Assembly (NCBI RefSeq): GCF_009363435.1
Contig: NZ_CP045354.1
Location: 4,554,501 to 4,618,500 of the forward strand
DNA length: 64,000 bases
Source of the DNA: Labrenzia sp. THAF82
GTDB taxonomy: Bacteria > Pseudomonadota > Alphaproteobacteria > Rhizobiales > Stappiaceae
Reading direction: 5' to 3'
In this document: piece after piece, positions 1,944-26,628 of the stretch
Position numbering within the stretch: position 1 is the first letter of the stretch
Layout: the number at the start of each line of letters is the position of its first letter
Notes under the pieces: generated by a model
The model's database searches: none
What the model was told of the DNA's origin: nothing
What the model saw: the letters and a program-made list of their open reading frames with translations, nothing else
Program-made: the position numbers and the translations under genes

Positions 1944-1963
1944 ATCGCTCTCCCTGAACACAT

Positions 1964-1985
1964 AATTCATTGAAATCAATGAATT
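1964..1985. promoter_or_regulatory. Perfect inverted repeat in SDR leader
   Basis: The arms AATTCATTGA and TCAATGAATT (10 bp each, 2-bp centre) lie 21 bases upstream of the SDR start. On the transcript they could form a hairpin; on DNA they could be an operator. It shares the core ATTGA with the second repeat at 1997-2014. No regulator gene is adjacent. Confidence 0.45.
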
Positions 1986-2101: not shown

Positions 2102-3457
2102 TCACCGCGCCAAGACAACGAGATCCAACGGCTTCAGGACGCCTGATACGACCGTATCACAACGGATTTCGACATCCGGACCCAGATACCCCTGGCTTTG
2201 CGCCAGTTCCCAAGTGCTTTTGTCCGTCAGCGCCTTTGTCAATTGCGCCTTGTTGGCGTCTTCCATTTTTGCAGCACGGTTGACGGCATCGCCGATAACG
2301 GTGAATTCCAGCCGGTTCTTTGAGCCGATGACACCGACCGTTACCGGTCCTGCAGCAACCGCCGTTCCAATCGTCAAAGTTCCCGGCCAGCCGGCCAAGC
2401 GAAAGCGCTGTTGATCCGACCTGACGCTTTCCACGAGCGTGGTCGCAGCTTCAAGTGCATCGGCGGCAAAACTTTCCGAAGGTTGAACCGCTCCAAAGGT
2501 CGCCAGAATGCCGTCACCCAGGAACTTGTCGACCCGACCACCGGCCTGATTGATCACTTCAACCGCCAGGTTCTGATACTCGGCAAGCACCTTCAGAACG
2601 ACTTCAGGAGGAAGCGACGAGGACACTGAGGTAAACCCGCGAATATCCGCATAAAGGATGGCTGCCTCACGCAGGTTGCCTTCACCTGCCTGAAGTTCGG
2701 TATTGGCATCGGTAATAGACGCAGCAACTTCTGGCGCGAAGAAGCGCCGTAAGTCCATGGCCGCTGCATGATCGCGTGTTGCTTCGAAAAGCATTGAGCG
2801 TCCCCGATAGAGCGCGACCGACAGGATCACGGTGACTGCGAAGATCACCATGGTCTTGTCCAGCTCTGCCCCCACCAAGATCGAATTTCCGGTCAGGTAT
2901 TCCACATAGTTTCGGGTGACTCGCATGGAGTCCATGTCGGCAAAGGCGGCATAAAACACCAGGCCAAGCCAGCCGGCGACAGCGACAAGACCCGTGGTCA
3001 ATACAAACCGCGGGTCGAAACGAAGAGCTCTCAAACCGATGAATATGAACACATACATGAGTGTTGGCGTCTTGAGATAAAACGCCGGATGCTGATCATA
3101 TTGAATGTGAAATGAAAAAATGAGCCCGACCAGCAGTGCCATGTCGACGCCGATAGAAATCAGCAGATACCATTGCGGGAGTTCGAAACGGTAGGACAGT
3201 AGCAAGCGAAAGATCGTGAAGAGGAAATACGCCCCGAGCGCAAAGGGCACAAAATTGAACCCGGCTGACCCCTCCGCGCGTGGCGCAATGATGTAAAGCG
3301 TCGAGAAAAACAGCACGAGCGCCAGTTGAACCCAACTGATCAGACGTTCCGAAGAGGCCTCACGAGCGCGGATTTCGGCGCGCACACGGTCAGGAATGCC
3401 GGCTTCCGGCGGTCCGCCGCGCAATATGTATCGCATTTTGTCCGAAAGTGAGCTCAT
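2102..3457 (-). CDS. Membrane-bound class III adenylate/guanylate cyclase
   Basis: This 451-residue protein has six membrane segments between about residues 38 and 215, then a class III cyclase catalytic domain (about 262-445). The metal-binding aspartates are visible at D271 (ILYADIRGF) and D315 (KFLGDG), and K311 fits the nucleotide-base position. In the transition-state motif, usually N-x-x-x-R, the sequence is NRAAK, so the arginine is replaced by K397; activity may be reduced or altered. The product is most likely cAMP, but purine specificity cannot be settled by eye. It follows the LuxR-type gene on the same strand, in a neighbourhood with a cNMP-binding protein and a possible phosphodiesterase. 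Confidence 0.88.
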   Translation of the reverse strand: MSSLSDKMRYILRGGPPEAGIPDRVRAEIRAREASSERLISWVQLALVLFFSTLYIIAPRAEGSAGFNFVPFALGAYFLFTIFRLLLSYRFELPQWYLLISIGVDMALLVGLIFSFHIQYDQHPAFYLKTPTLMYVFIFIGLRALRFDPRFVLTTGLVAVAGWLGLVFYAAFADMDSMRVTRNYVEYLTGNSILVGAELDKTMVIFAVTVILSVALYRGRSMLFEATRDHAAAMDLRRFFAPEVAASITDANTELQAGEGNLREAAILYADIRGFTSVSSSLPPEVVLKVLAEYQNLAVEVINQAGGRVDKFLGDGILATFGAVQPSESFAADALEAATTLVESVRSDQQRFRLAGWPGTLTIGTAVAAGPVTVGVIGSKNRLEFTVIGDAVNRAAKMEDANKAQLTKALTDKSTWELAQSQGYLGPDVEIRCDTVVSGVLKPLDLVVLAR

Positions 3458-5035: not shown

Positions 5036-5860
5036 TTAAGGTCGCAACACCATGCCTTCACTTGCAACCAACATACCCGGGTAGCTGTTTTGTGCCGCAA
5101 GCCCGATTTCATCGAGTTCATCATCTGAACGGCGCGGATCGTGGTGGAACAGCACAGGTGTCTTCACATCTCCATCCTTGGCCAGCTGAACAGCTTTTTC
5201 CCACGTAGAGTGCCCCCAGCCCTTGAAGGAAACGTATTCGCTGTCGGTAAACATGGCATCATAGATCATGATGTCAGCGCCGCGCACGAAGTCAGGCAAG
5301 GCCGCGTCGATTTCCGGGTCGCCATGTTCGTGGTCCGTAATGATGCAGATCGACTTGCCATGGTAGTCAAACCGATAGCCGCAGGCACCGCCCGGATGGT
5401 TCAGTTTGGTGGTTCGAATGACCAGGTCGTCTTCACGCGGGATGTTGTCGCCTGCAGTGAAGGATTTGAATTCCACGGCTTTTAACGTTTTGGCCGCGAC
5501 CGGAAAGATCGGCGGCGACATGATCCTGCTGACGATGTCGACGAGGCTGGTTTCATCCTGAAAATGACCGGCCCAGGCAGTCACTTCAAAGCTCGGATCG
5601 TAGGCAGGTTTGAAAAACGGCAGACCGCATATGTGGTCGAGATGCGTGTGCGTGAACAAAAGATCGAAACGGCGATGCTTACCTTTTAGAAGCTCCATGC
5701 CAAGGTTTCGTGCGCCTGATCCGCAATCAACGAGGACGAGTGCGTCCCCTGCATGGATTTCGAACGACGACGTCTCGCCGCCATACCGGAGAGTGCTCGA
5801 ACCCGGCGTCGGAGTTGAGCCTCTGACTCCCCAGCATCGAAGCGAAAATTCCTCAGCCAC
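5036..5860 (-). CDS. Metallo-beta-lactamase-fold hydrolase (PhnP / class II phosphodiesterase-like)
   Basis: This 274-residue protein has the binuclear metal motif HTHLDH at residues 71-76, a further NHPGG histidine near 155, TDHEHGD near 172-178 and FHHDP near 238. The opening RCWGVRGSTPTPG with YGGETSS is typical of the PhnP/RNase Z/class II cAMP-phosphodiesterase branch. The start is a GTG with AGGGAG 7 bases upstream. It lies 10 bases downstream of a cyclic-nucleotide-binding protein gene, which makes a role in cyclic nucleotide turnover attractive, but a general phosphodiester hydrolase is equally compatible. Confidence 0.8.
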   Translation of the reverse strand: MAEEFSLRCWGVRGSTPTPGSSTLRYGGETSSFEIHAGDALVLVDCGSGARNLGMELLKGKHRRFDLLFTHTHLDHICGLPFFKPAYDPSFEVTAWAGHFQDETSLVDIVSRIMSPPIFPVAAKTLKAVEFKSFTAGDNIPREDDLVIRTTKLNHPGGACGYRFDYHGKSICIITDHEHGDPEIDAALPDFVRGADIMIYDAMFTDSEYVSFKGWGHSTWEKAVQLAKDGDVKTPVLFHHDPRRSDDELDEIGLAAQNSYPGMLVASEGMVLRP

Positions 5861-5870
5861 GTGTTACTCC

Positions 5871-6329
5871 CTAACCACCGGAGGACCCCCTGCGCGCATC
5901 CGCAAGGTCACGGGTCGTGCGTTCAAGACGAAGCGCAAGCGTCCGCATCACTTCCAGCGATATATCCGGAAATTCTTGCAAGAGTTTCAAGAAATCATCT
6001 TTTGAAACAGTCAGAACGTCCATGTTGTTGGCAGCGACAAGTGTCGCTGTTCTGGGAACGTCGCACAAAATGGCAATTTCACCGACAATGGAATTTTCCG
6101 ACACCTGGGCGACTTTCTTCTCGCCTTCCGGTGTCTGGACCAGGACATTCGCGTCGCCGGACAGGATGATAAAGGCACAGTCACCTTCTTCACCCTGGGA
6201 ACAAAGACGCTCTCCTTCCGGATACTCGGTCCGATCGCTGATGAAGGCAAGGAGACGCAGCTTGGTCTCGTCAATACCGTGGAATAGCGGAACCTTACGA
6301 AGGGCTTCGACTTCAGTTTCTAGTGTCAT
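5871..6329 (-). CDS. Stand-alone cyclic nucleotide-binding domain protein
   Basis: The 152 residues form one CRP-type cNMP-binding beta-roll plus C-terminal helices. The phosphate-binding cassette SIVGEIAIL...VPRTAT keeps the glutamate (E84) and arginine (R93) that contact cyclic nucleotide in CRP and PKA. There is no DNA-binding helix-turn-helix or other output domain, so it probably acts by protein contact. It is the middle gene of ABC exporter - cNMP receptor - MBL hydrolase; GGAGGAG precedes the ATG. I infer that it couples cyclic nucleotide level to the exporter-like protein encoded upstream. Confidence 0.85.
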   Translation of the reverse strand: MTLETEVEALRKVPLFHGIDETKLRLLAFISDRTEYPEGERLCSQGEEGDCAFIILSGDANVLVQTPEGEKKVAQVSENSIVGEIAILCDVPRTATLVAANNMDVLTVSKDDFLKLLQEFPDISLEVMRTLALRLERTTRDLADARRGSSGG

Positions 6330-6391
6330 GTTCTCCTCCCCGGCATTTTGGGCCGCTGCTTCGCGGCCTTACCGTGTTTTCCGCCATTGTC

Positions 6392-8971
6392 CTACCCTTT
6401 GTCTGCAATACGTCCCTGATCCAAAACGAAGCGCTGATCAAATTCACCGGCAATATCCATGTTCGATGTACCGAACAAGAACGTTTTCCCGGCTAGTATT
6501 CCCCGCAAACCATTACGCAATTCTTTGTCGTCTTCTGTCATACCTGTAGCAATATCATCCAATATGGTGATTTTTGCGTTCTTCAGTAGACCTCTTACCA
6601 ATGCGATGCGCCTGCGCTGGCCGGCAGACAAGCGCGAACCCGAAACGCCAACATGGTAGCCAAAGCCGGCAAAGATGATCGGATGACGCAGTCCGGTCTC
6701 TTCCACAATGGCACGAATCACGTCGTCGATGCGCCGCCGGGCGTCCCTGCGGTCGACCCTGGCACGGCCGAACAGCAAGTTGTCTTCAATTGTAAGCGGC
6801 GGCAGATAAACGTCAGGATCGAACGCAACGAAGCCATCGCTGTTCTTCACGACACCCTCAAGGAACCGCTTGCGGGCCGCCACGACCTCATCCTTCAAGC
6901 TATCGTCCATAACGCCCAGACGATGCCTGGCGGGGACGAGCTTGAACGCCAGTCCGGTCAGGCGTGACTTGTCCGCTTCCGTCAGACCCGGTCGCTGGTG
7001 CCCTGACTTCGCAATCCTTACAATCCGTTCAAACTCGGGCAGATCATCCTGATTGATGAAGGAATAGGACCCCAGAAGCCCGCTGTCGCCGGAAACGTTG
7101 GAGAAGAGTTCCAGCATGGTTTCTGCGATCTTCAAGCCAATCTGCTGCAGTTTGACATCAAACCCGGTGTCGGACAGGAACGTTTTCACCTCTTCAAGGT
7201 CCGGTACCTCGTCCATGGTGATTTCAGGATCTGAAGGGACAGCAAAGAACAGGTTGTCGGCCAGGCTTGCACTGGCATTGAAACGGTCCTTGTGCCAAAG
7301 CTCGACCAAACCACCCAAGGCGGGTTCACTCGCAATGCGGCCAGCCAGGTTTTTGCGAACATTCAGGATCTTGTCGGCGAAGGCGTCGTTCATGGATGGG
7401 TCGAAGCGCGACTGCAGGCCCAGCCGATAAATATCCTTGTCGAGTTTGACCGCTTCCAGCAACTGCAGCGCCTTGGTGTCGAGTTGCTCCTCATCATCAA
7501 CACCCGCTGCCGACAGGTCATCCCAGTCTGCAGCAAGGTCGTAGACCGGATTGCGTGTCTGGTTGGCTTCATTGACCCTGCGCTTGTAATTCTTGAGGTC
7601 GTCCCCTTCCCGCTCGGGCGGCACGAGAGGACGGTGGCGCAGGCCATAGTAAAGGTTGTCCCGGATCGTGCCGGTCCACACGTGAACAGCCCCACCGACA
7701 TAAGCGATTTCTCGGCCAAGGGTGGAATCGGTCAGTTTGTCGAGATCGTGCTCTCCAATACAGACCTTGCCCGAGGACGCCGACACCAGACCGGCGGCGA
7801 GTTGCAGCACTTCCGAACGACCCGATCCGTCGGGCCCGACAATCGCGCATGTGGTGTTCGCCGGGACCTTCAGCGAGATATCCATGACTTCCTGACCGGC
7901 GGCACCACCAGAAAAACTGACGCTTTCAAACTTCACGTCACCCGACAGTTCAACCTGGTCGTCATCGGTCAGGCGCTCGGTGTCGTAGATGTCCGGCGGG
8001 TCGAAGTTTTCGACAACGGTCTGATACTTGACGCTGACATCAGCCGTCATCTGATAGAAGGACAGCAACAGCTTCCACGGTCCTGCCAGATCCTTGTAGG
8101 CCGCGATCACGGCCAGCAACGCACCGATACTCAGATTGCCCTGAATAACCAGATACCCGCCGATCAGGTAGAAGAAGAACGGCGTCAGCTGGTTCATGAA
8201 GTTGTTCAGGAACTTGATGAGGAACTTCCGGTTAAAGATCTCGTATCGGATCTTGAAGTTCTCATAGAGGCGGTCGGAAATGTCCGCCGAGTGCCAGGCC
8301 GCCGCATCATTGGCGTGGATCTCTGCGACCCCGGTGATGCTCTCACCGACTTTGTCCGCGATCAGACGAACGTTTTTCACCCGTTTGCGAGACAGCAGAA
8401 TGACTTTCTTCTGCAGCATCGGGATGATGTAGCCCTGGATCGGGTACGAGCTGATCGCCGCCAGACCCAGCAGTGGATCCTGCATAAAGATGAAGCCCAG
8501 CTGAACGATCAGCATACCGCCCTGATAGGCGGGCAGAGCGAAGGCTTCACCGATATAACCGCCCACATCCTCCACTTCGGACGTGATCATGGGAATGATC
8601 TCGCCGGAGCTCACTTTCCGGAAATGCGGCAGTCGAAATCTCAGAACCCTTTGAAAGAGTTCGAAACGAAGACGGCGCAGCATGCGCTCGCCCAGGCGCC
8701 CCTTGTAGACGTTCAGATAAAATTTGAGCCCGTTGGAGACCACAACGAGCCCCAAAAATGTCAGGCAGAGGAGAACGAGATACGGGATCTGGTCGAAGTC
8801 AAATCCCAGGACGTCGCGCGGGAAATTGTCTCCCTGAACGGCATCGTTGACAATCAACTTGGGCAATTCGAGCAGGAAATAGACCACCGGGTAGGTAAGG
8901 ACGGTGACCATCAAAATAAAAATCTGCTGGCGCGAACTATACTTCCAAATGAAGCGGAAAAGGCTTTTTTC
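6392..8971 (-). CDS. ABC exporter-like protein with degenerate and expanded nucleotide-binding domain
   Basis: Numbering is from the ATG at 8971 (a TTG at 9001 would add 10 residues). Residues 1-320 form an ABC exporter membrane domain with several hydrophobic segments. The ATPase domain begins near 340. Its Walker A reads GPDGSGRSE, with arginine (R385) for the catalytic lysine. The Q-loop glutamine is absent (YVGG). The signature is LSAGQ (781-785), Walker B is ITILDD with aspartate (D806) for the usual glutamate, and the H-loop histidine is replaced (TSN, N837). Between the Q-loop region and signature there are about 346 residues instead of about 50, containing three copies of the x-x-DNL-x-[YF] motif (starting 435, 569, 727). 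It may be a regulated, non-hydrolysing or slow transporter. It diverges from the glycosyltransferase operon. Confidence 0.8.
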   Translation of the reverse strand, partial: EKSLFRFIWKYSSRQQIFILMVTVLTYPVVYFLLELPKLIVNDAVQGDNFPRDVLGFDFDQIPYLVLLCLTFLGLVVVSNGLKFYLNVYKGRLGERMLRRLRFELFQRVLRFRLPHFRKVSSGEIIPMITSEVEDVGGYIGEAFALPAYQGGMLIVQLGFIFMQDPLLGLAAISSYPIQGYIIPMLQKKVILLSRKRVKNVRLIADKVGESITGVAEIHANDAAAWHSADISDRLYENFKIRYEIFNRKFLIKFLNNFMNQLTPFFFYLIGGYLVIQGNLSIGALLAVIAAYKDLAGPWKLLLSFYQMTADVSVKYQTVVENFDPPDIYDTERLTDDDQVELSGDVKFESVSFSGGAAGQEVMDISLKVPANTTCAIVGPDGSGRSEVLQLAAGLVSASSGKVCIGEHDLDKLTDSTLGREIAYVGGAVHVWTGTIRDNLYYGLRHRPLVPPEREGDDLKNYKRRVNEANQTRNPVYDLAADWDDLSAAGVDDEEQLDTKALQLLEAVKLDKDIYRLGLQSRFDPSMNDAFADKILNVRKNLAGRIASEPALGGLVELWHKDRFNASASLADNLFFAVPSDPEITMDEVPDLEEVKTFLSDTGFDVKLQQIGLKIAETMLELFSNVSGDSGLLGSYSFINQDDLPEFERIVRIAKSGHQRPGLTEADKSRLTGLAFKLVPARHRLGVMDDSLKDEVVAARKRFLEGVVKNSDGFVAFDPDVYLPPLTIEDNLLFGRARVDRRDARRRIDDVIRAIVEETGLRHPIIFAGFGYHVGVSGSRLSAGQRRRIALVRGLLKNAKITILDDIATGMTEDDKELRNGLRGILAGKTFLFGTSNMDIAGEFDQRFVLDQGRIADKG

Positions 8972-9205
8972 CATCAGCTCATCCAAACAGAAATGGATCA
9001 AAAATGTGCAAGCAGATCATATTTGGTATATTAACGATCCGAATTCGAAGTGCTAGCCGGGTTTAGCATTTGGCACAACCGTATTGAAAGTATCAGTTGA
9101 CCGTTCCCTGTCGAAAGATGTCTGTCAAGGCAGATCGGAACGTGACAAACTCCAGTCAATTGAGACATAAGTGCCTCGGGGCAGATTTACAAATTTAGGG
9201 GCAGT

Positions 9206-10426
9206 ATGAGTTCCGGAACGCCTAAGATACTGATCTACAGCCATGATTCGTTCGGATTAGGCCACTTAAGGCGCTGCCGTGCAATCGCTCAGTCACTGGT
9301 TGGGGACTTTGACACTCTTTCCGTTCTGATCCTCTCAGGCTCACCCATCATTGGCAGTTTCGAATTCAGGACCCGGGTCGACTTTGTCAGGATTCCCGGT
9401 GTCATCAAGCTGCGCAACGGCGAATACACCCCTTTGTCCCTGCACATCAACATCGATCAAACGCTGGCAATCCGTTCGTCAATCATCGAGCACACGGCCG
9501 AGATTTTCGAACCCGACATTTTCATTGTCGACAAGGAACCGCTTGGACTGAGAGGCGAAGTGCTTGGCACATTGGAGGCTCTCAAAGGCACCAACACCCG
9601 CCTTGTCCTGGGCTTGCGGGACGTTATGGACGATGCGACCGTTCTGAAAGAAGAATGGGACCGCAAGAATGTGTTCCCTGCCCTGAAGGATCTCTACGAC
9701 GAAATCTGGGTCTATGGTCCGGAAGATATCTGCGACCCGCTTGAGGGCATGGACCTGCCGGAAGGCGTAGCGGAAAAACTCCGATATACGGGTTACCTGC
9801 GCAGAGAAATGCCGAGTGCGGCGCTGGAAAACCCCGCGCCAGCACCTTTCGACGAAGAACCTTATATTCTGGTAACACCTGGCGGGGGCGGTGACGGCGT
9901 TGAAATGGTGGATTGGGTCATGCGGGCCTATGAAGCGCGCCAACGGCCTCTTTTTCCGGCCCTGATTGTGCTTGGCCCCTTTATGCCGGCCGCCTCGGCC
10001 GCACAGTTTACCGAACGGGCAGAACATCTTCGCGACGTGGAGGTAATCCGGTTCACACCCCAGATCGAACCCTATCTTGCCAATGCCACGGCAATTGTCG
10101 GTATGGGGGGCTACAATACGTTTTGCGAAATACTGTCCTTCGACAAACCCACCTTGATGGTGCCGCGTGTCGTTCCGCGCCGCGAACAAGCTATTCGCGC
10201 TGAGCGGGCGGAAAAGAGCGGCCTCTTGAAGGTCTTGCCGATAGACTGCTATCCGGATCCCGATCTCATGGCGACGGCATTGTCGGAACTACCAAACCTC
10301 GCGCCGCCCTCGGCTGCCAGTGTCGACAATCTGCTTGGCGGGCTGGAAGTTATTTCCGGTCGTGTCGGCGAAATCTTCGATGAGCAGCTTCCAGCAGATA
10401 GCAAAGTCAAACTGGCTATCGTCTGA
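9206..10426 (+). CDS. MurG/GT28-like glycosyltransferase
   Basis: This 406-residue GT-B protein has the N-terminal acceptor-side motif SFGLGHLRRC (residues 14-23) and the C-terminal donor-side loop GMGGYNTFCEIL (about 299-310), followed by PTLMVPR, as in MurG and other GT28-like enzymes. AGGGGC precedes the ATG. It heads a plus-strand operon of four glycosyltransferases and a deacetylase. A second, distinct MurG-like enzyme lies at 12842. The sugar donor cannot be assigned. Peptidoglycan MurG itself is unlikely, since no mur/fts genes are nearby. Confidence 0.8.
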   Translation: MSSGTPKILIYSHDSFGLGHLRRCRAIAQSLVGDFDTLSVLILSGSPIIGSFEFRTRVDFVRIPGVIKLRNGEYTPLSLHINIDQTLAIRSSIIEHTAEIFEPDIFIVDKEPLGLRGEVLGTLEALKGTNTRLVLGLRDVMDDATVLKEEWDRKNVFPALKDLYDEIWVYGPEDICDPLEGMDLPEGVAEKLRYTGYLRREMPSAALENPAPAPFDEEPYILVTPGGGGDGVEMVDWVMRAYEARQRPLFPALIVLGPFMPAASAAQFTERAEHLRDVEVIRFTPQIEPYLANATAIVGMGGYNTFCEILSFDKPTLMVPRVVPRREQAIRAERAEKSGLLKVLPIDCYPDPDLMATALSELPNLAPPSAASVDNLLGGLEVISGRVGEIFDEQLPADSKVKLAIV

Positions 10427-10477
10427 TCGCTTTCGCGTTTCACAGCTCAACGGTCAACCCTTTCAAAGATTGTAGTA

Positions 10478-11698
10478 ATGTCCCGAATTGCCGTTGTGGT
10501 CAAAGGCTATCCACGCCTGTCCGAAACCTTCATTGCACAAGAGATTCTAGGCCTTGAGCGGCGGGGAATAGACATCTTGATCGTCGCGCTGCGCAAACCC
10601 TATGACCCCTTCATTCACGACCTGCACCGACAAATCTCTGCGGACGTTCTCTATCTTCCCGAATATGTGAAAGACGACCCGGCGCGCGTTACCAGGGCCA
10701 AGAAATGGGCTGAAAGGCAACCCACTTTCGAAAAGGCCAAAGCGCTCTTTGATGCCGACTTTGCCCGGCAAACCAATGCGGATCGGCAACGTCGCTGGTC
10801 ACAGGCCTGTGTTTTCGCGCACGAGTTGCCGGAAGACATCACCTGGATCTACACCCATTATCTGCATACACCTTGTTCCACGGCACGCTATGCAGCGCAC
10901 TTGTCCGGTCGCCAATGGTCGTTTTCCGCTCACGCGAAAGATATCTGGACCAGCCCCGAGTGGGATTTGAGAACCAAGATCAACGACGCGGCCTGGGGGG
11001 TGACCTGCACCAGCGTCAATGCCACCTTCCTCAAGGGACTTGCTGATACACCTGACAAGGTTGAGCTACTGTATCACGGGCTTGATTTTTCCGGCTTTCC
11101 GGAGCCCTCCAAGGAGATGTCAAAGCGTGATGGCAGCGAAGAGCCGGTTCGGCTCGTATCCGTTGGACGTGCGGTTGAAAAGAAGGGGTACGACGATCTC
11201 CTGAGCGCCCTTTCAATGCTGCCCAACGACTTGAACTGGCGCTTCACGCATATTGGTGGTGGCGACCTCTCAGAGGTGCTGAAGCAAGAAGCTGAGCGTC
11301 TTGGCGTTGCACAGCGTATCACCTGGCGCGGAGCGCAGCCAAGGGAAGAGGTCATCGCGACCTGTGCAGACGCTGACCTGTTCGTCTTGCCGTCGAAACT
11401 TGCAAAGTCAGGCGATCGGGACGGATTGCCGAATGTCTTGATGGAAGCTCAATCCATGGGGCTTTGTTGTCTTTCCACACGTGTGTCGGCGATACCGGAG
11501 TTGATCGTCAGTGGTGAGACCGGGATTCTTGTGGAACCCGGTTCCCCAGACGAGCTTTCAGATGCCTTGAGCGGGTTGATTGCAGATCCCGATCGCAGGC
11601 GCATGCTAGGGCTTGCTGCCGCAAACCGTGTACGCAAGGAGTTTTCAACTGATCCCGGCCTTGACCGGTTGGCAGAGAAGTTTCGTAAGGTGCTTTGA
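10478..11698 (+). CDS. Family 4 glycosyltransferase (WcaL/colanic-acid type)
   Basis: This 406-residue GT-B enzyme opens with IAVVVKGYPRLSETFIAQEI, the signature of colanic-acid-type GT4 enzymes. The donor half has VSVGRAVEKKGYDDLL (about 223-238) and the EX7E region DGLPNVLMEAQ near 310. The gene follows the first glycosyltransferase by 51 bases and ends 19 bases before the next start. It probably adds one sugar to a lipid-linked or soluble acceptor during assembly of a surface glycan; linkage and substrate are unknown. Confidence 0.82.
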   Translation: MSRIAVVVKGYPRLSETFIAQEILGLERRGIDILIVALRKPYDPFIHDLHRQISADVLYLPEYVKDDPARVTRAKKWAERQPTFEKAKALFDADFARQTNADRQRRWSQACVFAHELPEDITWIYTHYLHTPCSTARYAAHLSGRQWSFSAHAKDIWTSPEWDLRTKINDAAWGVTCTSVNATFLKGLADTPDKVELLYHGLDFSGFPEPSKEMSKRDGSEEPVRLVSVGRAVEKKGYDDLLSALSMLPNDLNWRFTHIGGGDLSEVLKQEAERLGVAQRITWRGAQPREEVIATCADADLFVLPSKLAKSGDRDGLPNVLMEAQSMGLCCLSTRVSAIPELIVSGETGILVEPGSPDELSDALSGLIADPDRRRMLGLAAANRVRKEFSTDPGLDRLAEKFRKVL

Positions 11699-11717
11699 TC
11701 CGCCAGCAGGACTTCCT

Positions 11718-12845
11718 ATGAGAATCGCCTTCACAGCCCCGATGAAACCCCTTGATCATCCTGTCCCTTCTGGCGACAGGACGATGGGTCGCCTGATTGT
11801 AAAGGCCCTCAAATCCGCGGGGCATGAGGTTGAGGTAGCCAGCACGTTCCGGTCCTGGCGCAAGGATGGCAGCGACGAACTCCAGTCCAAGGTGAAAGCC
11901 GAAGCTCTCAAGGAAGTCAGCCGCATCGCCAACGACTGGAAACGTGACAGGAACAAGCCCGACCTGTTCCTGACATATCATCTTTATCACAAGGCTCCCG
12001 ACTGGATTGGGCCCGCTTTGGCGGATCGATTTGATCTGCCTTACGCGATCATCGAAGCAAGCCGCGCGCCGAAACGCAAAACGGGCAACTGGGCATTCGG
12101 CTTTGCTGCAGCTGATTTGGCTCTGCAACGGGCTGACGCCGTTGCCGCAATTCACAACGCAGATGCAGAGTGCTTGCACGAGGTTGTCCCTCCGGACCGT
12201 CTTGACGTTCTTCTGCCTTTTCTGGATGAAGCACCTTATCGACAAGCAGTGACCGGCTCCAAACCGCCCGCATCTGCGCCCCTCAAACTTCTTGCCGTTG
12301 GAATGATGCGAGAAGGCGACAAGTTTCGATCCTATGAGGTGCTTGCCGCAGCCCTTGATCGCCTTATGAATCTATCCTGGCATCTGACCCTGATCGGTGA
12401 CGGGCCTGTCCGTTCCAAGGTTGTTGATCTCTTCCCGGCGGACAGGATTACCGTTCTCGGCGCTCTTGGGGCAGAAGACTTGCCAGCGCAATATGCTCAA
12501 CACGATCTCGTTGTTTGGCCTGCTATTCGTGAAGCGTTTGGTCTGGTCCTGATGGAAGCTCAAGCGGCTGGCACCGGGGTTGTCGCAGGTAACACTTTCG
12601 GAGTTCCTGATATTGTCCGGCAGGGAGAAACCGGATTGCTTTCGCAAGAAGGCGATGTTGAAGCCTTTGCCGCAAATCTGGAAAACGTCATCAGGAACCC
12701 AGGCATTGCCGATCGATTGGGCATTGCAGCCAGCGCATATATATCCGCCAACCATTCGCTCGAAGCCGGGGCTGCTCGGCTGGACCTTTTTGCCCGCAAG
12801 GCTGTCGACAACCATAGGCGGCCTCAGAAAGACCAAGGAAAATGA
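11718..12845 (+). CDS. Glycosyltransferase family 4-like protein
   Basis: This 375-residue GT-B protein starts at the ATG at 11718 (MRIAFTAPMKPLDHPVPSGD...), since further upstream the frame overlaps the previous gene and is unconserved. The donor half contains LLAVGMMREGDKFRSYEVL, ALGAEDLPAQYAQHDLVVWPA and REAFGLVLMEAQAAG (the EX7E motif). The N-terminal Rossmann half carries IVKALKSAGHEVEV. It overlaps the next gene by 4 bases (ATGA). It is one of four glycosyltransferases in the operon; the product glycan is unknown. Confidence 0.78.
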   Translation: MRIAFTAPMKPLDHPVPSGDRTMGRLIVKALKSAGHEVEVASTFRSWRKDGSDELQSKVKAEALKEVSRIANDWKRDRNKPDLFLTYHLYHKAPDWIGPALADRFDLPYAIIEASRAPKRKTGNWAFGFAAADLALQRADAVAAIHNADAECLHEVVPPDRLDVLLPFLDEAPYRQAVTGSKPPASAPLKLLAVGMMREGDKFRSYEVLAAALDRLMNLSWHLTLIGDGPVRSKVVDLFPADRITVLGALGAEDLPAQYAQHDLVVWPAIREAFGLVLMEAQAAGTGVVAGNTFGVPDIVRQGETGLLSQEGDVEAFAANLENVIRNPGIADRLGIAASAYISANHSLEAGAARLDLFARKAVDNHRRPQKDQGK

Positions 12846-13996
12846 CCCGCAAGGCCTTCATTCACGTGCAGCACCTGCTGGGTACCGGCCATGTGGTCAG
12901 GGCAGCCGCAATTGGCAAAGCATTGGCCTCTTCAGGCGTTGAGGTGACATTGGCCAGCGGCAACAAAATTCCCCCAACCCTGGACACCGGGCCGCTTCGT
13001 ATTGTCGAACTCCCCGCCTGCAAAAGCCCTGACGCCGCGTTCAAGCGACTTGTTACTTTAGACGATGAAGATATTGACAATGAATGGAAAACATCGCGCG
13101 TTAAAGCATCGATTCAAGCATTTAAGGAAGAAGAATTCGACCTGCTCTTGACGGAGACCTATCCCTTTGGGCGGCGCCAGCTAGACTTTGAACTAAGTCC
13201 TCTCCTCAACGCGGCAAAGGCACGGCCCAATCCGCCAATTGTTGCGACATCCATTCGAGATATTCTGGTGCGCAAGAAGGAACTCTGGAAAGAAGAATGG
13301 ATGGCTGATCAGGCACTGAACCATTATCATCGAGTGCTTGTCCATTCCGACCCGGATTTCATCCAACTTTCCGACAGCTTCCCATTTGCAGACCGGATCG
13401 AACATCTGATCCGCTATACCGGTTATGTCGAAGGACATGCCCGCCGAGCTGCCGACGGATCTGATGGCAATGACGAAGTGATCGTTTCGTGCGGTGGCGG
13501 CGCAGTCGCAGCAAGTCTCCTGACGGCAGCCCTGGATGCCCGCCCCTTGTCGCGACGTGCGGGAGACACTCGCTGGCGGGTCCTTGTCGGACACGACGTG
13601 CCGGAAGACAGCTTTCACGCCTATCAGAAACGCGCATCAACTGGCGTCAGCGTCGAACGCGCTCGCAGGGATTTTCCTGACCTATTGAAACGTGCTCGGC
13701 TCTCCATCAGCCAGGCTGGTTACAACACAGTGCTCGATGTGCTGACTGCCGGTGTCGCTGCTGTCTTTGCTCCGTTTGCACAGAAAAACGAAACGGAGCA
13801 AACGCAACGTGCGGAAGCATTGGCACGCCATGGCAGGGCAATTGTTACGCCCGAAATGGGTTTGACACCCGAACGGCTTGCTGCAGCTGCAGACGACGCT
13901 CTGGCCCTTCCCCGCAGTCATCATGCTGTTTTGCTTGGCGGCGCAGCAAAGAGCGCTGAAATTCTCCTCAACGACCTTAAAGAGCGCGCCGCATGA
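12842..13996 (+). CDS. Second MurG/GT28-like glycosyltransferase
   Basis: This 384-residue protein has the N-terminal loop HLLGTGHVVRAAAIGKAL (residues 9-26), corresponding to the GxGH acceptor loop of GT28-like enzymes. The C-terminal donor loop SQAGYNTVLDVL is followed by FAPFAQKNETEQTQRAEAL. It starts inside the stop of the previous gene and its own stop overlaps the deacetylase start, so the last three genes are tightly coupled. It is only distantly similar to the GT28-like protein at 9206, which suggests different donors or positions in one glycan. Confidence 0.78.
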   Translation: MTRKAFIHVQHLLGTGHVVRAAAIGKALASSGVEVTLASGNKIPPTLDTGPLRIVELPACKSPDAAFKRLVTLDDEDIDNEWKTSRVKASIQAFKEEEFDLLLTETYPFGRRQLDFELSPLLNAAKARPNPPIVATSIRDILVRKKELWKEEWMADQALNHYHRVLVHSDPDFIQLSDSFPFADRIEHLIRYTGYVEGHARRAADGSDGNDEVIVSCGGGAVAASLLTAALDARPLSRRAGDTRWRVLVGHDVPEDSFHAYQKRASTGVSVERARRDFPDLLKRARLSISQAGYNTVLDVLTAGVAAVFAPFAQKNETEQTQRAEALARHGRAIVTPEMGLTPERLAAAADDALALPRSHHAVLLGGAAKSAEILLNDLKERAA

Positions 13997-14751
13997 CAAC
14001 GGATCTGCAACGTTTCAAAGACGAACTGGCAGCACATCTCGACTGGTTTGCAGAACGCGGGCGCAAAGTGAGCTTCTGGTGGCGGGATGACGACGCGGTG
14101 GAACCAACACCAGCGCTTGACCGCATGTTGGCTTTTTGCAATCGACACGGGGTGGATATGGCACTCGCTGTTATTCCGAAGAATGCGACAGAAAACCTTG
14201 CAGCCCGACTTCAAGACGAGCCTCATGCATGGGTGCTGCAACATGGTTGGCAGCACAAGAACTTTCAACGCAAGGATCTGCGCGAAAAAGCGGCTGAGCT
14301 TGGCACCCGGCGCGACCCGGATGAACTGATAGCCCAGCTTACCGACGGTAAATTACGGCTTGAAAAGTTGTTTGCGGCCAAATTCATCAAGGCCATGGTG
14401 CCACCTTGGAACCGGATTGCACCTGAGATTTCACGCAGATTGCCAGGCATGGGACTTCCAGGTCTTTCCACGTTCACATGGCACAATTTCCCTCGCGACC
14501 ATCAAGTCCAGTCCCATGTAGACATCATAAAGTGGAAAAAACAGGTTCGTTTCATTGGCTGGGAAAGTGCTCGGTTACGCTTTGATCTGCAGCTCACGCG
14601 CCGCCGCAACACAGGCAGCGAACCTGTCGGCCTCCTCACCCATCATTTGGCGCATGATGAAGAGTGCTTTGAGTTTCTGGAAGAGTTTCTGGCCATTTCT
14701 GCCCACCATGAGGGTGCGGAATGGCCGCGCATTGAAACCTTGTTTGGCTAA
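13993..14751 (+). CDS. Polysaccharide deacetylase-like protein
   Basis: These 252 residues have the NodB-type layout: WWRDDD near residues 28-33 (motif 1 aspartates), QHGWQHKN near 79-86 (the HxxxH-like metal ligands), PPWNR near 134-138 (motif 3) and LLTHHLAHD near 212-220. There is no signal peptide, so it would act in the cytoplasm, perhaps on a lipid-linked or nucleotide-linked N-acetyl sugar made by the upstream enzymes. The start overlaps the previous stop (ATGA). It is the last gene of the operon. Confidence 0.78.
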   Translation: MTTDLQRFKDELAAHLDWFAERGRKVSFWWRDDDAVEPTPALDRMLAFCNRHGVDMALAVIPKNATENLAARLQDEPHAWVLQHGWQHKNFQRKDLREKAAELGTRRDPDELIAQLTDGKLRLEKLFAAKFIKAMVPPWNRIAPEISRRLPGMGLPGLSTFTWHNFPRDHQVQSHVDIIKWKKQVRFIGWESARLRFDLQLTRRRNTGSEPVGLLTHHLAHDEECFEFLEEFLAISAHHEGAEWPRIETLFG

Positions 14752-19754: not shown

Positions 19755-20936
19755 TCACTTATAGGGATCTGCTGCGTCACGCAAACCATCACCAAGGAAA
19801 TTGAACGCCAGCACAACGATGATGATGGGGATTACCGGAGCCATCAGCCAGGGATAAACCGTTACCACCGAAATGTTCTGTGCCTCATTCAACAAGACAC
19901 CCCAGGAAATCGCCGGACGCCTGAGGCCGAGGTTGAGGAACGACAACGCTGTTTCCCCCAGGATCATCGATGGAATCGACAACGAAGCAGACGCAATGAT
20001 GTGGCTGGTGAAACCGGGCAACAGATGCCGGGTGATGACCCGTTTCGGCTTTGCCCCCATCAACACCGCAGCCTTGGCATATTCTTCCTCACGCAGAGAC
20101 AGAAGCTTTGACCTGACGGCTCTGGCAAGCCCGGGCCAATCCAGCAGCCCCAGGATGATCGTGAGGCCGAAATAGATCCAGACCGGGCTCCAGGTAACAG
20201 GCAACGCTGCGGAAAGCGCCATCCAGAGCGGCAACTCAGGCAAGGATCGAATGATCTCGATAGCGCGTTGGATCACACTGTCGGCCAAACCACCGAAATA
20301 GCCGGCGATGCCGCCGAAGAAGAGGCCGAGAACGATTGAAATGGCAACACCGATAAGACCGACAGTCAGGGACAGACGTGCGCCATAGACAAGACCGGAG
20401 AATTGATCCCGGCCCAGACGGTCCGTTCCCAACAGGAACATCGTGCCGCCTTCAGCCGGACAGACCAGATGGAAAGACGCGTCGAACAGGCCCCAGAATT
20501 CGTAGTCGTCCCCACTGCAGAAGAACCGCAGCTTCTGCACTTGCGTCGTGTCGTCCTTGAACACCCATTGCAAGGTCTCCATGTCGATCTCGGACGTCAT
20601 CCCATAGACAAAGGGCCCGACAAAGGATCCTTCGTGGAAGAGGTGGATGGGTTGGGGAGGCGCATAAAGATGCAAGCTGTCGCGGGTATTCGCGTCATAA
20701 GGTGCAATCAGTTCAGCAAAAGGTACCGTCAGGTAGAACAGGATCAGGATGACACCTGACCAGACCGCAACCTTGTGGCGTTTGAACTTCCACCACATGA
20801 TCTTCCACTGCGAAGCCTGATAGAAACGCTCTTGTTCAGGCGTCATTTCCTCCGCGACAGCGGGGTTGAAAGGAGTTGGATCGACGTAGTGTTCAACGTC
20901 CCGAACCGGCGTTCCATTGTTCGCATCCGAGCTCAT
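19755..20936 (-). CDS. Peptide/oligopeptide-type ABC transporter permease (OppC/DppC family)
   Basis: This 393-residue inner-membrane permease has a first membrane segment near residues 55-75, a periplasmic insertion of about 130 residues, and a second block of membrane segments. The latter contains the EAA loop that meets the ATPase (EEYAKAAVLMGAKPKRVITRHLLPG). ETALSFLNLGLRRPAISWGVLLNEAQ is typical of the OppC branch. It overlaps the OppB-type gene by 4 bases. With the other operon members it forms a family-5 importer for peptides or other small solutes; the substrate cannot be read from sequence. Confidence 0.88.
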   Translation of the reverse strand: MSSDANNGTPVRDVEHYVDPTPFNPAVAEEMTPEQERFYQASQWKIMWWKFKRHKVAVWSGVILILFYLTVPFAELIAPYDANTRDSLHLYAPPQPIHLFHEGSFVGPFVYGMTSEIDMETLQWVFKDDTTQVQKLRFFCSGDDYEFWGLFDASFHLVCPAEGGTMFLLGTDRLGRDQFSGLVYGARLSLTVGLIGVAISIVLGLFFGGIAGYFGGLADSVIQRAIEIIRSLPELPLWMALSAALPVTWSPVWIYFGLTIILGLLDWPGLARAVRSKLLSLREEEYAKAAVLMGAKPKRVITRHLLPGFTSHIIASASLSIPSMILGETALSFLNLGLRRPAISWGVLLNEAQNISVVTVYPWLMAPVIPIIIVVLAFNFLGDGLRDAADPYK

Positions 20937-21958
20937 GACGATGCCCTCCCGCCAAGACGGATGCGCGGATCGAGAACCGCAAGCAGCAGGTCTGAAATCA
21001 ACATGCCAATCAGGGTCAGAACAGCTACGAAAAGCAATATGAACCCTGAAAGGAACTGATCCTGCGACTGAAGTGCCGAAACCAGAACGGGTCCGACCGT
21101 TGGAAGGCTCATCACGACGGACACAATCACCGAGCCCGACACCATCGACGGGATCAGGTTGCCGATATCGGCAATGAACGGATTGATCGCCATTCGAAGC
21201 GGATATTTCACCAGAAGCTGATTCTCCTTCAACCCCTTTGCCCTGCCGGTGGTGACATATTGTTTGTGAAGCTCATCCAGCAGGTTGGCTCGAAGACGAC
21301 GGATCATGGCCGCCGTCCCAGAGGTTCCGATCACAATCGTCGGCACAATCAAATGCGCCAACACCGACATCGCCTTATCAAAACTCCACGGCTGATCGAT
21401 ATACTCCGGCGCCATAAGTCCGCCCACCGAGAGGCCGAACCAGCGATTGAAGAAATAGAGAAGGATCAAGGCAAGCAGGAAATTCGGCGTGGCCAATCCG
21501 ATATAGCCGACAAAGGTGATGCCATAGTCGCCCCAGGAATACTGCCGTGTAGCGGAATAGATGCCGATCGGAAAAGCAACCACATAGACAAATAGGATCG
21601 TTGCAAAATTCAGAACCACCGTGAGCGGCAAGGTCGGCCCGATTACCTGGTCAACCGGCTTGTCGAACTCGAAAGACCAGCCCCAATTGCCTTGAATGAG
21701 CCCATCAAGCCCATGAGGTCCGGGCCACAGACCGACCCAGATCAGGTATCTTTCGAAAAATGGCCGATCAAGCGAAAATTCCTTGCGCAGGAACTCCAGC
21801 TTCGCAACAGACGAACTCTCCCCTGAAGCCTTCAGAGCTGCAATCTGGTTGGAAATATAGTCTCCGGTCGGAAGTTCGATGATGAAAAACGTCAGAAAGC
21901 TGATCACCAGCAAAGTCGGGATCATCATCAATATCCGACGTATTATATAGTAGAGCAC
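20933..21958 (-). CDS. Peptide-type ABC transporter permease (OppB/DppB family)
   Basis: This 341-residue permease starts at a GTG (21958) preceded by AGGGGG. It has an N-terminal membrane segment (YYIIRRILMMIPTLLVISFLTF), a periplasmic stretch with FSLDRPFFERYLIW, and five further segments. The EAA-type loop ELHKQYVTTGRAKGLKENQLLVKYPLR docks to the ATPase. It pairs with the OppC-type permease that follows with a 4-base overlap. Confidence 0.88.
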   Translation of the reverse strand: MLYYIIRRILMMIPTLLVISFLTFFIIELPTGDYISNQIAALKASGESSSVAKLEFLRKEFSLDRPFFERYLIWVGLWPGPHGLDGLIQGNWGWSFEFDKPVDQVIGPTLPLTVVLNFATILFVYVVAFPIGIYSATRQYSWGDYGITFVGYIGLATPNFLLALILLYFFNRWFGLSVGGLMAPEYIDQPWSFDKAMSVLAHLIVPTIVIGTSGTAAMIRRLRANLLDELHKQYVTTGRAKGLKENQLLVKYPLRMAINPFIADIGNLIPSMVSGSVIVSVVMSLPTVGPVLVSALQSQDQFLSGFILLFVAVLTLIGMLISDLLLAVLDPRIRLGGRASS

Positions 21959-22036
21959 TTATTCCCCCTAAGCCCCAACTGCGTCTGAATAAGAGCCGTC
22001 GCTGCACCAGCGACAACATGAACTATTACCCCAGCA

Positions 22037-22699
22037 TCAGGCCGCCTTCAGCGCAAGCGTCAGGCCGTCTGAAAACGGCAACATTGAAATCACCACCCGG
22101 TCGTCATCCCGCAATCGCGCATTCAAGGCGCGAATGTCATCGACTGCCGGATCCTTGATTTCCGGATCGATGACGTCACCGAGACGAAGCATGTTGTCGA
22201 ACACCATAATCCCGCCGGTTCTGAGCAGTTTCAAGGCAAGCTCGTAATAGGCGGTATAACTCTTCTTGTCGGCGTCGACGAAAATCAGATCGAATGAACT
22301 TCCTTCACCTTCGTTGAGCATGTCCTGCATGACCCCTTGCGCCCGTCCGATCCGAAAATCGATCTTGTGGCGAACACCGGCTTCCTGCCAATGGGTTTCT
22401 GCCAGCTCCTGCCAATTGTTGCGCTTGTCGATGGCGACAACGCGGCCATCATCAGGCAGAGCAGAGGCCATCCATAGTGTGGAGTAGCCGGTGAACACAC
22501 CAAGCTCCATAACCCTTTTGGCGTTCAAGGCCTTGATCAGGAAATACAACAACTGGCCCTGCTCCTGCGGGACACGCATATCGGCGTCCGGCAGGATTTG
22601 AGTGTGGTGGCGAAGTCTTTTAAGTGATGCGGATTCCCGGGTCCCGTGCTGGCAAACATAGTCGATAAGGTCTGCGGTAATCTCCAGCCGGTCAGCCAT
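22037..22699 (-). CDS. SAM-dependent O-methyltransferase (CCoAOMT/COMT-like)
   Basis: This 220-residue protein shows the bacterial O-methyltransferase pattern: RVMELGVFTGYSTLWMA (SAM loop), GRVVAIDKR, and FDLIFVDADKKSYTAYYELAL with metal-ligand aspartates, then GGIMVFDNML. Divalent-metal-dependent methylation of a catechol-like hydroxyl is the family reaction. It lies between the substrate-binding protein gene and the permease genes of the transporter operon, so it may modify the imported compound, which is inference. Confidence 0.85.
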   Translation of the reverse strand: MADRLEITADLIDYVCQHGTRESASLKRLRHHTQILPDADMRVPQEQGQLLYFLIKALNAKRVMELGVFTGYSTLWMASALPDDGRVVAIDKRNNWQELAETHWQEAGVRHKIDFRIGRAQGVMQDMLNEGEGSSFDLIFVDADKKSYTAYYELALKLLRTGGIMVFDNMLRLGDVIDPEIKDPAVDDIRALNARLRDDDRVVISMLPFSDGLTLALKAA

Positions 22700-22742
22700 A
22701 TTTCCTCCGTATGAGTCCCGGAAATCCCTTTCAGGTGCTGGT

Positions 22743-24626
22743 TCAGTTCGTCAGATAGAACTCATCCATACGATGAATTCCAAAATGCGCGCCCGGATCC
22801 CAGCCATAGATGCCTTCAAGCGGGACATTTTCCACATTCTTGATCGCAACTGGCTGGCGAACGCCGGAGACAAGACCAATGCGGATTGTCTCGTTGGCAT
22901 GGATCTGGAGCATCTCATCCCAGATCTTTGTGCGCTCTTCGGGTGTCTTGGAGACGAGCCAGGACTTGTAGAGTTCCATCAAACGCTCGGCAGGCGCCCA
23001 ATCCGGCTTTTCGCCACCCTCTCCCTGAGTCTCGTAGTAGTCACCCCAGGCGTGCCACGACAAAACATCTCCATGAACCGGCGCAAGGTCTTCCGGTGGC
23101 ATTTCTGAAGTTGGAATACCGTTCTCAAGACCCCACCAGACCGACATGACCAGCTGACCGGTGATTGCCCGTTCACGCAGGTTGTCGCGCTGGCTCGGTT
23201 TGGCGAACAGTTTGATGCCGAGTTCACCCCACATCTCACCCACCAGTTCCAATGCATCGTCCTGCACCTGGGCTTCGCCTGCTGTCTCCACGATGATTTC
23301 GATCGGCCTGCCATCCGGCAGAAGGCGCGTACCTTCGTCGTCGCGTTTCGTCAGACCAATTTCATCCAGCAGCTCATTGGCCTTGTCCGGGTCATATTCA
23401 GCCCATTTGGTCGTGTACTCAGGCTTGTAAAGCGGGCTTGCCGAAAGGATCGTGTCGTTGCCTGGCGTACCAAGACCGAAGAACAGAACACGATTGATCA
23501 GATTGCGGTCGATGCCGAGCGACAATGCGTGGCGAAAGCGATTGTCACGGAACAGCGCGCGCCACTCGGGATCCTTCACTGTGAAGTTCGGAAGAATGGA
23601 AATTTCGGAGCCCTTGGTATTGGACCACAGCGCCGTCACGTAGTCGTTCTGCTTCTCACCCTTTTTCAGGACGGTGATATCTGAGAAGCTCAAGTTTCTG
23701 GCCTGCAGGTCACTCTCGCCGGCTTGCGTTTTCGCCGGGATCAGTTTGCCGTCAGCCACCGTCATGATGACGTTGTCGACATAAGGCAACTGTTGTCCGG
23801 TGCTGTCGACCCGATGGTAATATGGATTGCGTTCCAGAATGAACCGAAGATCGCTGTCGTCGCGCATGCGCACCCAGGGCTGAAGGCTTGGAAGCGCGAC
23901 ATTCCGGGCGTTGTACATGTCGTCTCTTTTGGCATGAAGCGGTGCCCAGTTGCGCGCTTTTACCTTGGCAGCTTCCTTGGTGATGAAGTCCGGATCGCCG
24001 TATTTCTCATGAAACTGTTTCAGATAATGCGCCGGGCGATAGATAAACGGAGGCCGGGCTTTAGCAAGTTCCGGCAGGAACAGCGGATTGGGCTCATCCC
24101 ACGTGAAACGAACGGTGGTCTCGTCCACCACCTCGAACTTCGGACCTTTGCCGTTCACAACAAGAAACGGCGGCAAACCGGAGGGCGTCAACTTTTCATT
24201 GCTGACAATGTCCTCAAAATAGTAACGGAAGTCTTCGGCTCCAAAAGGATGTCCATCGGACCATTTGTGGCCTTCACGGGTGTGAAACGTGAAAATACGT
24301 CCATCTTCCACTTCAACATCTTCAAGAATGTCGGGCAGCAGCTCCAGCTTGTCGTTGTAGCCAACGAGGCGTGCGTAACCCCAGACATTGATCAGACGCA
24401 CATCCTTGGCGCGTCCAATAAGTGTGTCGATAGCACCGCCGTGTTTGCCGACCGTGCGGCCCTTGGATTCGAGATCCACGACAAGCGGTTCGGATGGAAG
24501 CCTTTCGGCCACAGGTGGAAGTGCCGGGTCGAGCCCTGGCGTTTCCTTCAGTTCCAGCGCGGCCAAAGGCCCCGCGAACATGGCAGCGGTCACAAACAGA
24601 CCGGCCCTTACGGTGTTCATAAGCAT
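22743..24626 (-). CDS. Family 5 solute-binding protein of ABC transporter
   Basis: This 627-residue periplasmic protein starts at the ATG at 24626, which overlaps the stop of the ATPase gene (TAATG). The signal peptide ends near AALELKE (residues 18-24). The SBP_bac_5 fold is supported by FTFHTREGHKWSDGHPFGAEDFRYYFED (about 100-127), the DNRFRHALSLGIDRNLINRVLFFG region and a WWGLENGIPTSEMPPEDLAP region. At over 600 residues it belongs to the longer family-5 group, like those for larger peptides or opine-like compounds. The ligand is unknown. Confidence 0.88.
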   Translation of the reverse strand: MLMNTVRAGLFVTAAMFAGPLAALELKETPGLDPALPPVAERLPSEPLVVDLESKGRTVGKHGGAIDTLIGRAKDVRLINVWGYARLVGYNDKLELLPDILEDVEVEDGRIFTFHTREGHKWSDGHPFGAEDFRYYFEDIVSNEKLTPSGLPPFLVVNGKGPKFEVVDETTVRFTWDEPNPLFLPELAKARPPFIYRPAHYLKQFHEKYGDPDFITKEAAKVKARNWAPLHAKRDDMYNARNVALPSLQPWVRMRDDSDLRFILERNPYYHRVDSTGQQLPYVDNVIMTVADGKLIPAKTQAGESDLQARNLSFSDITVLKKGEKQNDYVTALWSNTKGSEISILPNFTVKDPEWRALFRDNRFRHALSLGIDRNLINRVLFFGLGTPGNDTILSASPLYKPEYTTKWAEYDPDKANELLDEIGLTKRDDEGTRLLPDGRPIEIIVETAGEAQVQDDALELVGEMWGELGIKLFAKPSQRDNLRERAITGQLVMSVWWGLENGIPTSEMPPEDLAPVHGDVLSWHAWGDYYETQGEGGEKPDWAPAERLMELYKSWLVSKTPEERTKIWDEMLQIHANETIRIGLVSGVRQPVAIKNVENVPLEGIYGWDPGAHFGIHRMDEFYLTN

Positions 24627-26512: not shown

Positions 26513-26628
26513 TGCGCTTTTCCTCCCCGGCAAGGATTGTCTGCGAGAGGCTTACTAAGCCCTTATTGCAACAGAAAGACAACCAAATTCGCCGGTCGAT
26601 AGCAATGCAGAAATCAGTGATAAACGAC

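Follow-up and report, generated by a model that had tools for sequence, protein, structure and literature searches.

In bacteria, an exporter-type ATP-binding cassette (ABC) protein can stand under a regulator with a cyclic-nucleotide-monophosphate (cNMP)-binding domain, and the nearest described case is HetC of Nostoc, which is reported to have an N-terminal cNMP domain and a C39 peptidase and to require the catalytic residue of its ATPase (PMC10986499). The exporter-type fold is also that of the flippases MsbA and PglK, the latter of which is reported to flip a lipid-linked oligosaccharide (PMC5395944). Here we analyze a locus from the 6.4-Mb, single-contig genome of Labrenzia sp. THAF82, using a stretch of 64,000 nucleotides (contig NZ_CP045354.1, positions 4,554,501 to 4,618,500) that we call the window throughout, in which an exporter-type ABC protein and a lone cNMP-binding protein (CNB) face a divergent operon of glycan-building enzymes. 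The locus thus shares with HetC the exporter-type protein with a cNMP-domain partner, and with MsbA and PglK the exporter-type fold adjoining glycosyltransferases. In contrast to HetC, however, its ATPase motifs are eroded, the cNMP domain either stands as a protein of its own or is fused to the C-terminus of the ABC protein, and the neighborhood includes linked glycan genes; in contrast to MsbA and PglK, the ABC protein scores below the MsbA cut-off, carries a large insertion in its eroded nucleotide-binding domain and has a cNMP receptor as its partner. Each part of the set belongs to a known family, and the combination is without a description in the open-access literature that we searched by narrow word combinations or via ABC proteins with worn ATPase sites, which is weak evidence of absence because only open-access papers were covered.

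We propose, with a probability of about 0.57, that this ABC protein puts an envelope-glycan machine under the control of a dedicated cyclic-nucleotide circuit. On the minus strand of the window, the ABC gene (6392..8974, 860 residues from its ATG; PF00664 at 2.9e-17 and PF00005 at 1.4e-17) is followed after 62 bases by CNB (5871..6329, 152 residues; PF00027 at 3.3e-20) and, after a further 10 bases, by a metallo-beta-lactamase-fold hydrolase (MBL; 5036..5860; PF12706 at 7e-18), and the same strand carries a membrane class III nucleotide cyclase (CYA; 2102..3457; PF00211 at 1.1e-12). The plus strand encodes a GT28-like glycosyltransferase (GTa; 9206..10426; PF04101 at 4e-7), two GT4-type glycosyltransferases, of which the first is EpsE-like (GTb; 10478..11698; PF00534 at 1.1e-31) and the second lies at about 11718..12845 (GTc; PF13692 at 6.6e-25), a GT28/MurG-like glycosyltransferase (GTd; 12842..13996; PF04101 at 2.1e-12) and a polysaccharide-deacetylase-like protein (DEAC; 13993..14751), whose PF01522 match (4.2e-4) remains below the Pfam cut-off with 20.7 against 23.1 bits. 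All open reading frames named in the first-pass annotation are present and its domain assignments hold in Pfam, as do the 4-base overlaps of GTc with GTd and of GTd with DEAC. The shared divergent intergenic region was likewise found between ABC and GTa, yet it measures 231 bp (8975..9205) and not 234, since the ATG of the ABC gene occupies 8974-8972. The cyclase, an importer (discussed below) and the erosion of the ABC protein's ATPase motifs go beyond what that annotation contained.

The evidence that carries the proposal is, first of all, conserved linkage. Our set comprised 120 loci, namely 40 plus a further 80 that ranked highest among 482 confirmed stretches; five were dropped as near-duplicates (ABC protein >98% identical), and among the 115 kept we use the 82 with full flanks, i.e. 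>7 kb on either side of the ABC gene. Neighbors were counted either by any match at 1e-8 or by a stricter rule, which applies below unless stated otherwise and which asks that at least 70% of the query be matched. CNB is present at 81 of the 82 loci and lies directly downstream of the ABC gene, or is fused to it, in 78. The glycan genes recur almost as often (GTa 68, GTb 72, GTc 68, GTd 69, DEAC 64), with at least four of the five at 67/82 loci under both rules, and ABC and GTa are divergently oriented in 59 of the 68 loci having GTa. Non-member controls, by comparison, are rare neighbors: LuxR was found at two loci, MsrA at two and nitrile hydratase alpha at one, and with any match at 1e-8 the counts are three, two and one, with none for nitrile hydratase beta. 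If 38% identity is required in addition to the coverage, CNB remains at 73 loci, DEAC at 42, GTc at 64 and GTd at 65. The first-pass annotation had treated the two divergent halves as one unit, and the linkage count bears this out.

Gene order is sometimes rearranged with membership retained (L060, L063, L064, L067, L100, L104 and L112), which argues for selection over the mere descent of one block. Homologues occur in Sinorhizobium, Rhizobium, Mesorhizobium and Azospirillum, which brings the set within reach of work in laboratory strains, and in Mesorhizobium sp. WSM1497 the glycosyltransferases, ABC, CNB, MBL, the deacetylase, cyclases and the importer all lie within ~31 kb. Chance clustering is ruled out by the conserved linkage, the rearranged orders and the rarity of control neighbors. 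Altogether, we regard it as highly probable that the genes of the set form one functional module.

A second line of evidence comes from whole genomes. Among the genomes sampled, relatives of the ABC protein were found in 59 of 150 from the order (E ≤1e-30), in 79 of 240 from the class (profile search, 1e-100) and in 27 of 398 from across the phylum (profile, 1e-120), where all 27 belong to the class; they also appear on some records titled Gammaproteobacteria or Burkholderiales, which are metagenome bins with possibly wrong titles. The nearest named relatives are Labrenzia and Roseibium, with 90 and 86% identity across the ABC protein. In raw genome counts that ignore kinship, ABC and GTa occur together in 54 genomes of the order, against five with ABC only, two with GTa only and 89 with neither, and the corresponding numbers for the class are 75, four, one and 160. 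Within the sample families f11, f13 and f14, the two are jointly present or jointly absent. CYA follows the ABC protein in the same way in the order (40 genomes with both, 19 with ABC only, one with CYA only, 90 with neither), as does MBL (47, 12, six with MBL only, and 85).

The cyclase does so although it is frequently not a neighbor. Under the stricter rule, CYA is found at 24 and MBL at 32 of the 82 full-flank loci. Of the 40 genomes that have both genes, 39 were examined for distance (G078, whose two genes are on different draft contigs, was left out), and CYA is away from ABC in 16, three times on the same contig at >20 kb (G064, G100 and G126) and 13 times on another contig, where many of the assemblies are drafts, so that a separate contig is no proof of distance. 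Hence, a cyclase that is often not seen near the ABC gene is nevertheless inherited with it, and the co-inheritance rests on more than linkage. CYA and MBL, on the other hand, are adjacent on the same strand in 26 of the 33 genomes having both, and five of these 26 pairs are not near ABC, which indicates that a putative writer and eraser often travel as one pair and a putative reader and the ABC protein as another.

The ABC protein itself has an ABC_membrane domain and the exporter-type fold, and its nucleotide-binding domain has undergone pronounced changes. The Walker A Lys, the catalytic Glu and the H-loop His are all replaced in the window protein, which reads R386 S387 in place of the Walker A Lys-Ser/Thr and D806 D807 in place of Walker B Asp and catalytic Glu. 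In an alignment of 118 proteins (the window and 117 of the 120 loci, duplicates retained), only one keeps all four tested ATPase residues and two show the canonical Walker A pattern, as opposed to two such patterns in each of 51/51 linked importer ATPases. A further alignment comprised the window and 53 of 79 usable proteins from the best 80 of the 482 confirmed stretches. The nucleotide-binding domain also contains an insertion of ~270 residues with extra copies of the Q-loop/helical segment, and the best NCBIfam match, TIGR02203 (MsbA), reaches 170.8 bits with a cut-off of 602. The first-pass annotation had proposed export of a glycan by this protein. The exporter-type fold agrees with that proposal; ordinary ATP-driven export, however, appears doubtful, because the three residues are replaced and the set is rarely complete among relatives. 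We therefore lean towards the view that the ABC protein has lost the usual ATP hydrolysis.

Three readings of the ABC protein have to be weighed here. In the first, it would have ceased to be a pump driven by ATP: CNB would be the subunit that binds the ligand, cyclase and phosphodiesterase would be its own, and cAMP would control it as a membrane gate or flippase of a lipid-linked glycan; in this specific form the idea is tentative and rather unlikely. ABC proteins of the CFTR and SUR type, which gate rather than pump, illustrate the use of the ABC fold for gating or regulation, but we claim homology to them for the ABC fold only, and here the reader would be a direct subunit. In the second reading, the protein remains an ordinary ATP-driven flippase, either as a degenerate subunit that pairs with a canonical one encoded elsewhere in the genome or as a slow homodimer, and CNB is a mere modulator. 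Type I exporters with a degenerate site, such as TM287/288 and TmrAB, indeed show the same exchange of Walker A Lys to Arg and the loss of the catalytic Glu, yet they keep one canonical site, and no second half was seen here: at the scanned loci, tblastn at 1e-8 within limited flanks, a search that distant ones can escape, gave no further ABC protein of exporter type matching in the membrane domain (partners elsewhere in the genome were not sought). Moreover, the four key positions show 59 different combinations among the 118 proteins, whereas degenerate sites are reported in a review to be conserved among orthologues. We thus consider an ATP-driven flippase unlikely. The third reading denies transport and sees in the protein a scaffold in the membrane through which cNMP turns the glycosyltransferases on or off, and for which SUR-like ABC proteins provide the comparison. 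The eroded motifs, the CNB fusions described below and a mean majority fraction of 0.67 in the membrane domain, the best-conserved part, versus 0.52 in the core of the nucleotide-binding domain would all fit a scaffold; contact of the ABC protein with the glycosyltransferases lacks support, though, and the exporter-type fold is kept, so that we judge this reading quite improbable.

Some second matches span the membrane part of the ABC protein only (about residues 1-320) in frames of 321-483 residues (G092:C3, G064:C4, G121:C2 and G412:C4), and are possibly paralogues lacking the nucleotide-binding domain. In Sinorhizobium meliloti 1021, the ABC copy is one base longer than that of strain RU11/001 and its frame is interrupted (L163:17001-19653), while the RU11/001 copy is intact. 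SMb20813 may be the tag of the S. meliloti ABC gene; one paper calls SMb20813 an msbA homologue in a single sentence. A reading as a HetC-like peptidase-containing ABC transporter was rejected, as the C39 peptidase domain is absent from the ABC protein, in which Pfam finds ABC_membrane and ABC_tran alone.

CNB shows the sequence hallmarks of a cyclic-nucleotide-binding domain. It matches PF00027 and carries the motif GE...R[ST]A, the phosphate cassette of cyclic-nucleotide-binding domains, in which R93 is invariant in 108/108 sequences, G83 is found in 107 and E84 in 105. Across 124 loci (duplicates included), CNB is a separate gene at most 600 bp downstream of the ABC gene in 105, part of a single open frame with it in seven and not directly beside it in 12. 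Among these 12, the protein of Azospirillum thermophilum is a fusion as well, with ABC_membrane and cNMP_binding (residues 912-996) in one chain of 1020 residues by Pfam; four others have CNB elsewhere on the locus (L100, L104, L106 and L143), and several of the remainder are short contigs. The fusions, which place CNB at the C-terminus of the ABC protein in some lineages, suggest that CNB is most likely the regulatory subunit, or reader, of the ABC protein. The first-pass annotation had suggested that cyclic nucleotide gates glycan export or synthesis through this receptor: its link to the ABC protein stands, through the in-frame fusions and the co-inherited cyclase, and it is quite likely that the nucleotide acts on the ABC protein by way of CNB, with direct gating as the proposed mode.

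CNB might instead read another ligand, such as cGMP or ppGpp, so that the link to the cyclase would be indirect. Thr at the position equivalent to residue 94 favors cGMP in the cNMP domains of eukaryotic kinases, and CNB has Thr at this position in 96 of 108 sequences. In addition, the cNMP domain of HetC is reported to bind ppGpp in vitro (PMC10986499). Against this, the phosphate cassette is canonical with its invariant Arg, and the co-inherited cyclase has the adenine-type Lys in 25 of 31 sequences; we consider a different ligand rather unlikely.

That cyclase would be the writer of the circuit and is predicted to produce cAMP. Class III adenylate cyclases use two metal-binding Asp, a transition-state Asn and an adenine-type Lys, and all of these are found in the CYA of the window. 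Among 31 sequences, D271 and D315 (the metal Asp), T386 and N393 are invariant, and K311 is replaced by Gln in the six sequences that lack it. The best solved-structure matches are 6fht, a phytochrome-cyclase fusion, and 2w01, a guanylate cyclase of a cyanobacterium, which carries Glu where CYA has the adenine-type Lys. The N-terminal half of CYA is a hydrophobic membrane domain without a Pfam match, in which H117 and Y120 are invariant and Q119 is found in 30/31 sequences; it is possibly a new sensor domain.

MBL, to which the first-pass annotation assigned no part in the system, is likely a class II cNMP phosphodiesterase and would act as the eraser. Its HxHxDH motif (H71, H73, D75 and H76) is invariant in 26 sequences, and it shares this motif and the MBL fold with the class II enzymes YhfI, Rv1339 and Apyc1. 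YhfI is reported to prefer cAMP and cGMP (PMC9117128) and Rv1339 to be an atypical class II cyclic-nucleotide phosphodiesterase (PMC9293780). MBL is distant from them in sequence, and this predicted phosphodiesterase is paired with a cyclase. It could also be an enzyme of the RNase Z or PhnP kind, with RNA or a glycan precursor as its substrate: RNase Z comes first by sequence, PhnP is among the fold matches (top chains listed), and NF041851, the model of cyclic nucleotide-degrading phosphodiesterases, gives 33.6 bits with a cut-off of 400. YhfI and RNase Z fit the predicted structure to the same degree. We give this alternative serious weight, while holding it to be the less probable assignment.

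A cyclase next to a cNMP-binding protein also recalls anti-phage defense of the Pycsar type, in which a class III cyclase is combined with a cNMP-binding effector. Indeed, the PADLOC PycC models match CYA (best 1.4e-25) and the PycTIR model matches CNB (4.9e-17), but these matches are limited to the cyclase and cNMP domains (residues 14-149 of the 288 of PycTIR), CNB lacks a TIR domain, and the linkage to a glycan operon is stable. With its 152 residues and PF00027 only, CNB does not contain the defining effector domain, and we rejected this reading as very improbable.

Turning to the glycan genes, the enzymes probably build a cell-surface sugar, as far as domain content can tell. GTa is among the most conserved members of the set. 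None of the NCBIfam matches listed for these proteins reaches its curated cut-off (GTb against NF041876, 135.3 bits with a cut-off of 400; GTd against TIGR01133, 38.5 with 250.25), and in DEAC the motifs WRDDDA, HG..H and PPWNR are conserved across 76 sequences. The scanned proteins, which make up a part of the window, include no priming transferase or ligase. Whether the cargo of the ABC protein would be the glycan made by the adjoining genes we regard as an even call. In rhizobia, a nucleotide-sugar dehydrogenase is also encoded at the locus. A histidine phosphatase (PF00300) lies between GTc and GTd at one locus (L090:5597-6208) and recurs at other such loci, and the S. meliloti pSymB stretch with cyclase and importer encodes a polysaccharide lyase (PF14099; L164:5100-6068) and a DUF3095 protein (L164:765-1967). 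The genes SMb20804 and SMb20805 are linked to capsular polysaccharide in one study (PMC5539429); they could not be placed relative to this locus. In the intergenic region 8975..9205, an alignment of 10 close relatives revealed no regulatory element conserved past the nearest two, and a consensus promoter scan found no promoter.

An Opp/Yej-type ABC importer (19755..26533, minus strand), made up of two permeases, a family 5 solute-binding protein and a two-domain ATPase, is a frequent, not constant neighbor of the glycan locus. At the 82 full-flank loci its ATPase is present at 36, the YejE-like permease at 28, the YejB-like permease at 25 and the binding protein at 17, and among 98 loci that span at least 16 kb (duplicates and four plasmid loci included), 57 carry two or more importer genes in linkage. 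Its domain content is that of YejABEF/Opp-type peptide importers, from which this copy differs by its linkage to the glycan locus, seen across many genomes. Among other neighbors, a short-chain dehydrogenase (window positions 1176-1979) recurs at 23/82 loci, and a protein of 630 residues without a Pfam match (L101:1050-2942) has relatives at other loci in a cluster of 14 frames from 13 loci. The LuxR gene at 3558-4709, considered as a regulator of the locus, was rejected, LuxR being present at 3/82 loci by any match at 1e-8.

In the mechanism that we propose, CYA would make cAMP upon a signal sensed by its membrane domain, and CNB would bind the nucleotide as regulatory subunit of the ABC protein until its degradation by MBL returns the switch to its starting state. 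In the cytoplasm, the glycan enzymes may assemble a short chain on a lipid carrier, partly deacetylated by DEAC, and the ABC protein, with CNB loaded, would move this lipid-linked glycan or gate its synthesis, while the importer may bring in a related peptide or oligosaccharide. The stricter count of neighbors weakens one part of the support for this picture: on passing from any match at 1e-8 to at least 70% of the query, the local linkage of the cyclase falls from 31 to 24 of 82 loci, and that of the importer from 51 to 36 (ATPase), 30 to 28 (YejE), 33 to 25 (YejB) and 40 to 17 (binding protein), with MBL, CNB and the count of 67 for the glycan genes unchanged. Our confidence in the dedicated circuit is slightly lowered by this, and the probability given above takes it into account. 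The alternatives weighed above are not mutually exclusive, and two of them concern one part each, namely the ligand of CNB and the substrate of MBL.

In summary, our analysis points to a probable connection between cyclic-nucleotide signaling and the building of an envelope glycan. In Alphaproteobacteria, cAMP is known mainly via CRP-like transcription factors, and to our knowledge many cyclases in their genomes are without a known target. That one cyclase type tracks a membrane protein and a glycan operon genome by genome provides a testable non-transcriptional target. In the ABC family, found in 79 of 240 sampled genomes of the class, the ATPase site is naturally eroded to different extents while the membrane domain is conserved, a series that can help to tell to what extent an ABC protein can do without hydrolyzing ATP. 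If the ABC protein is indeed a gate or flippase under CNB control, it would represent a bacterial ABC protein for which a second messenger acts as the switch, in place of ATP hydrolysis as the driving force, and about one in three of the sampled Alphaproteobacteria would have it.

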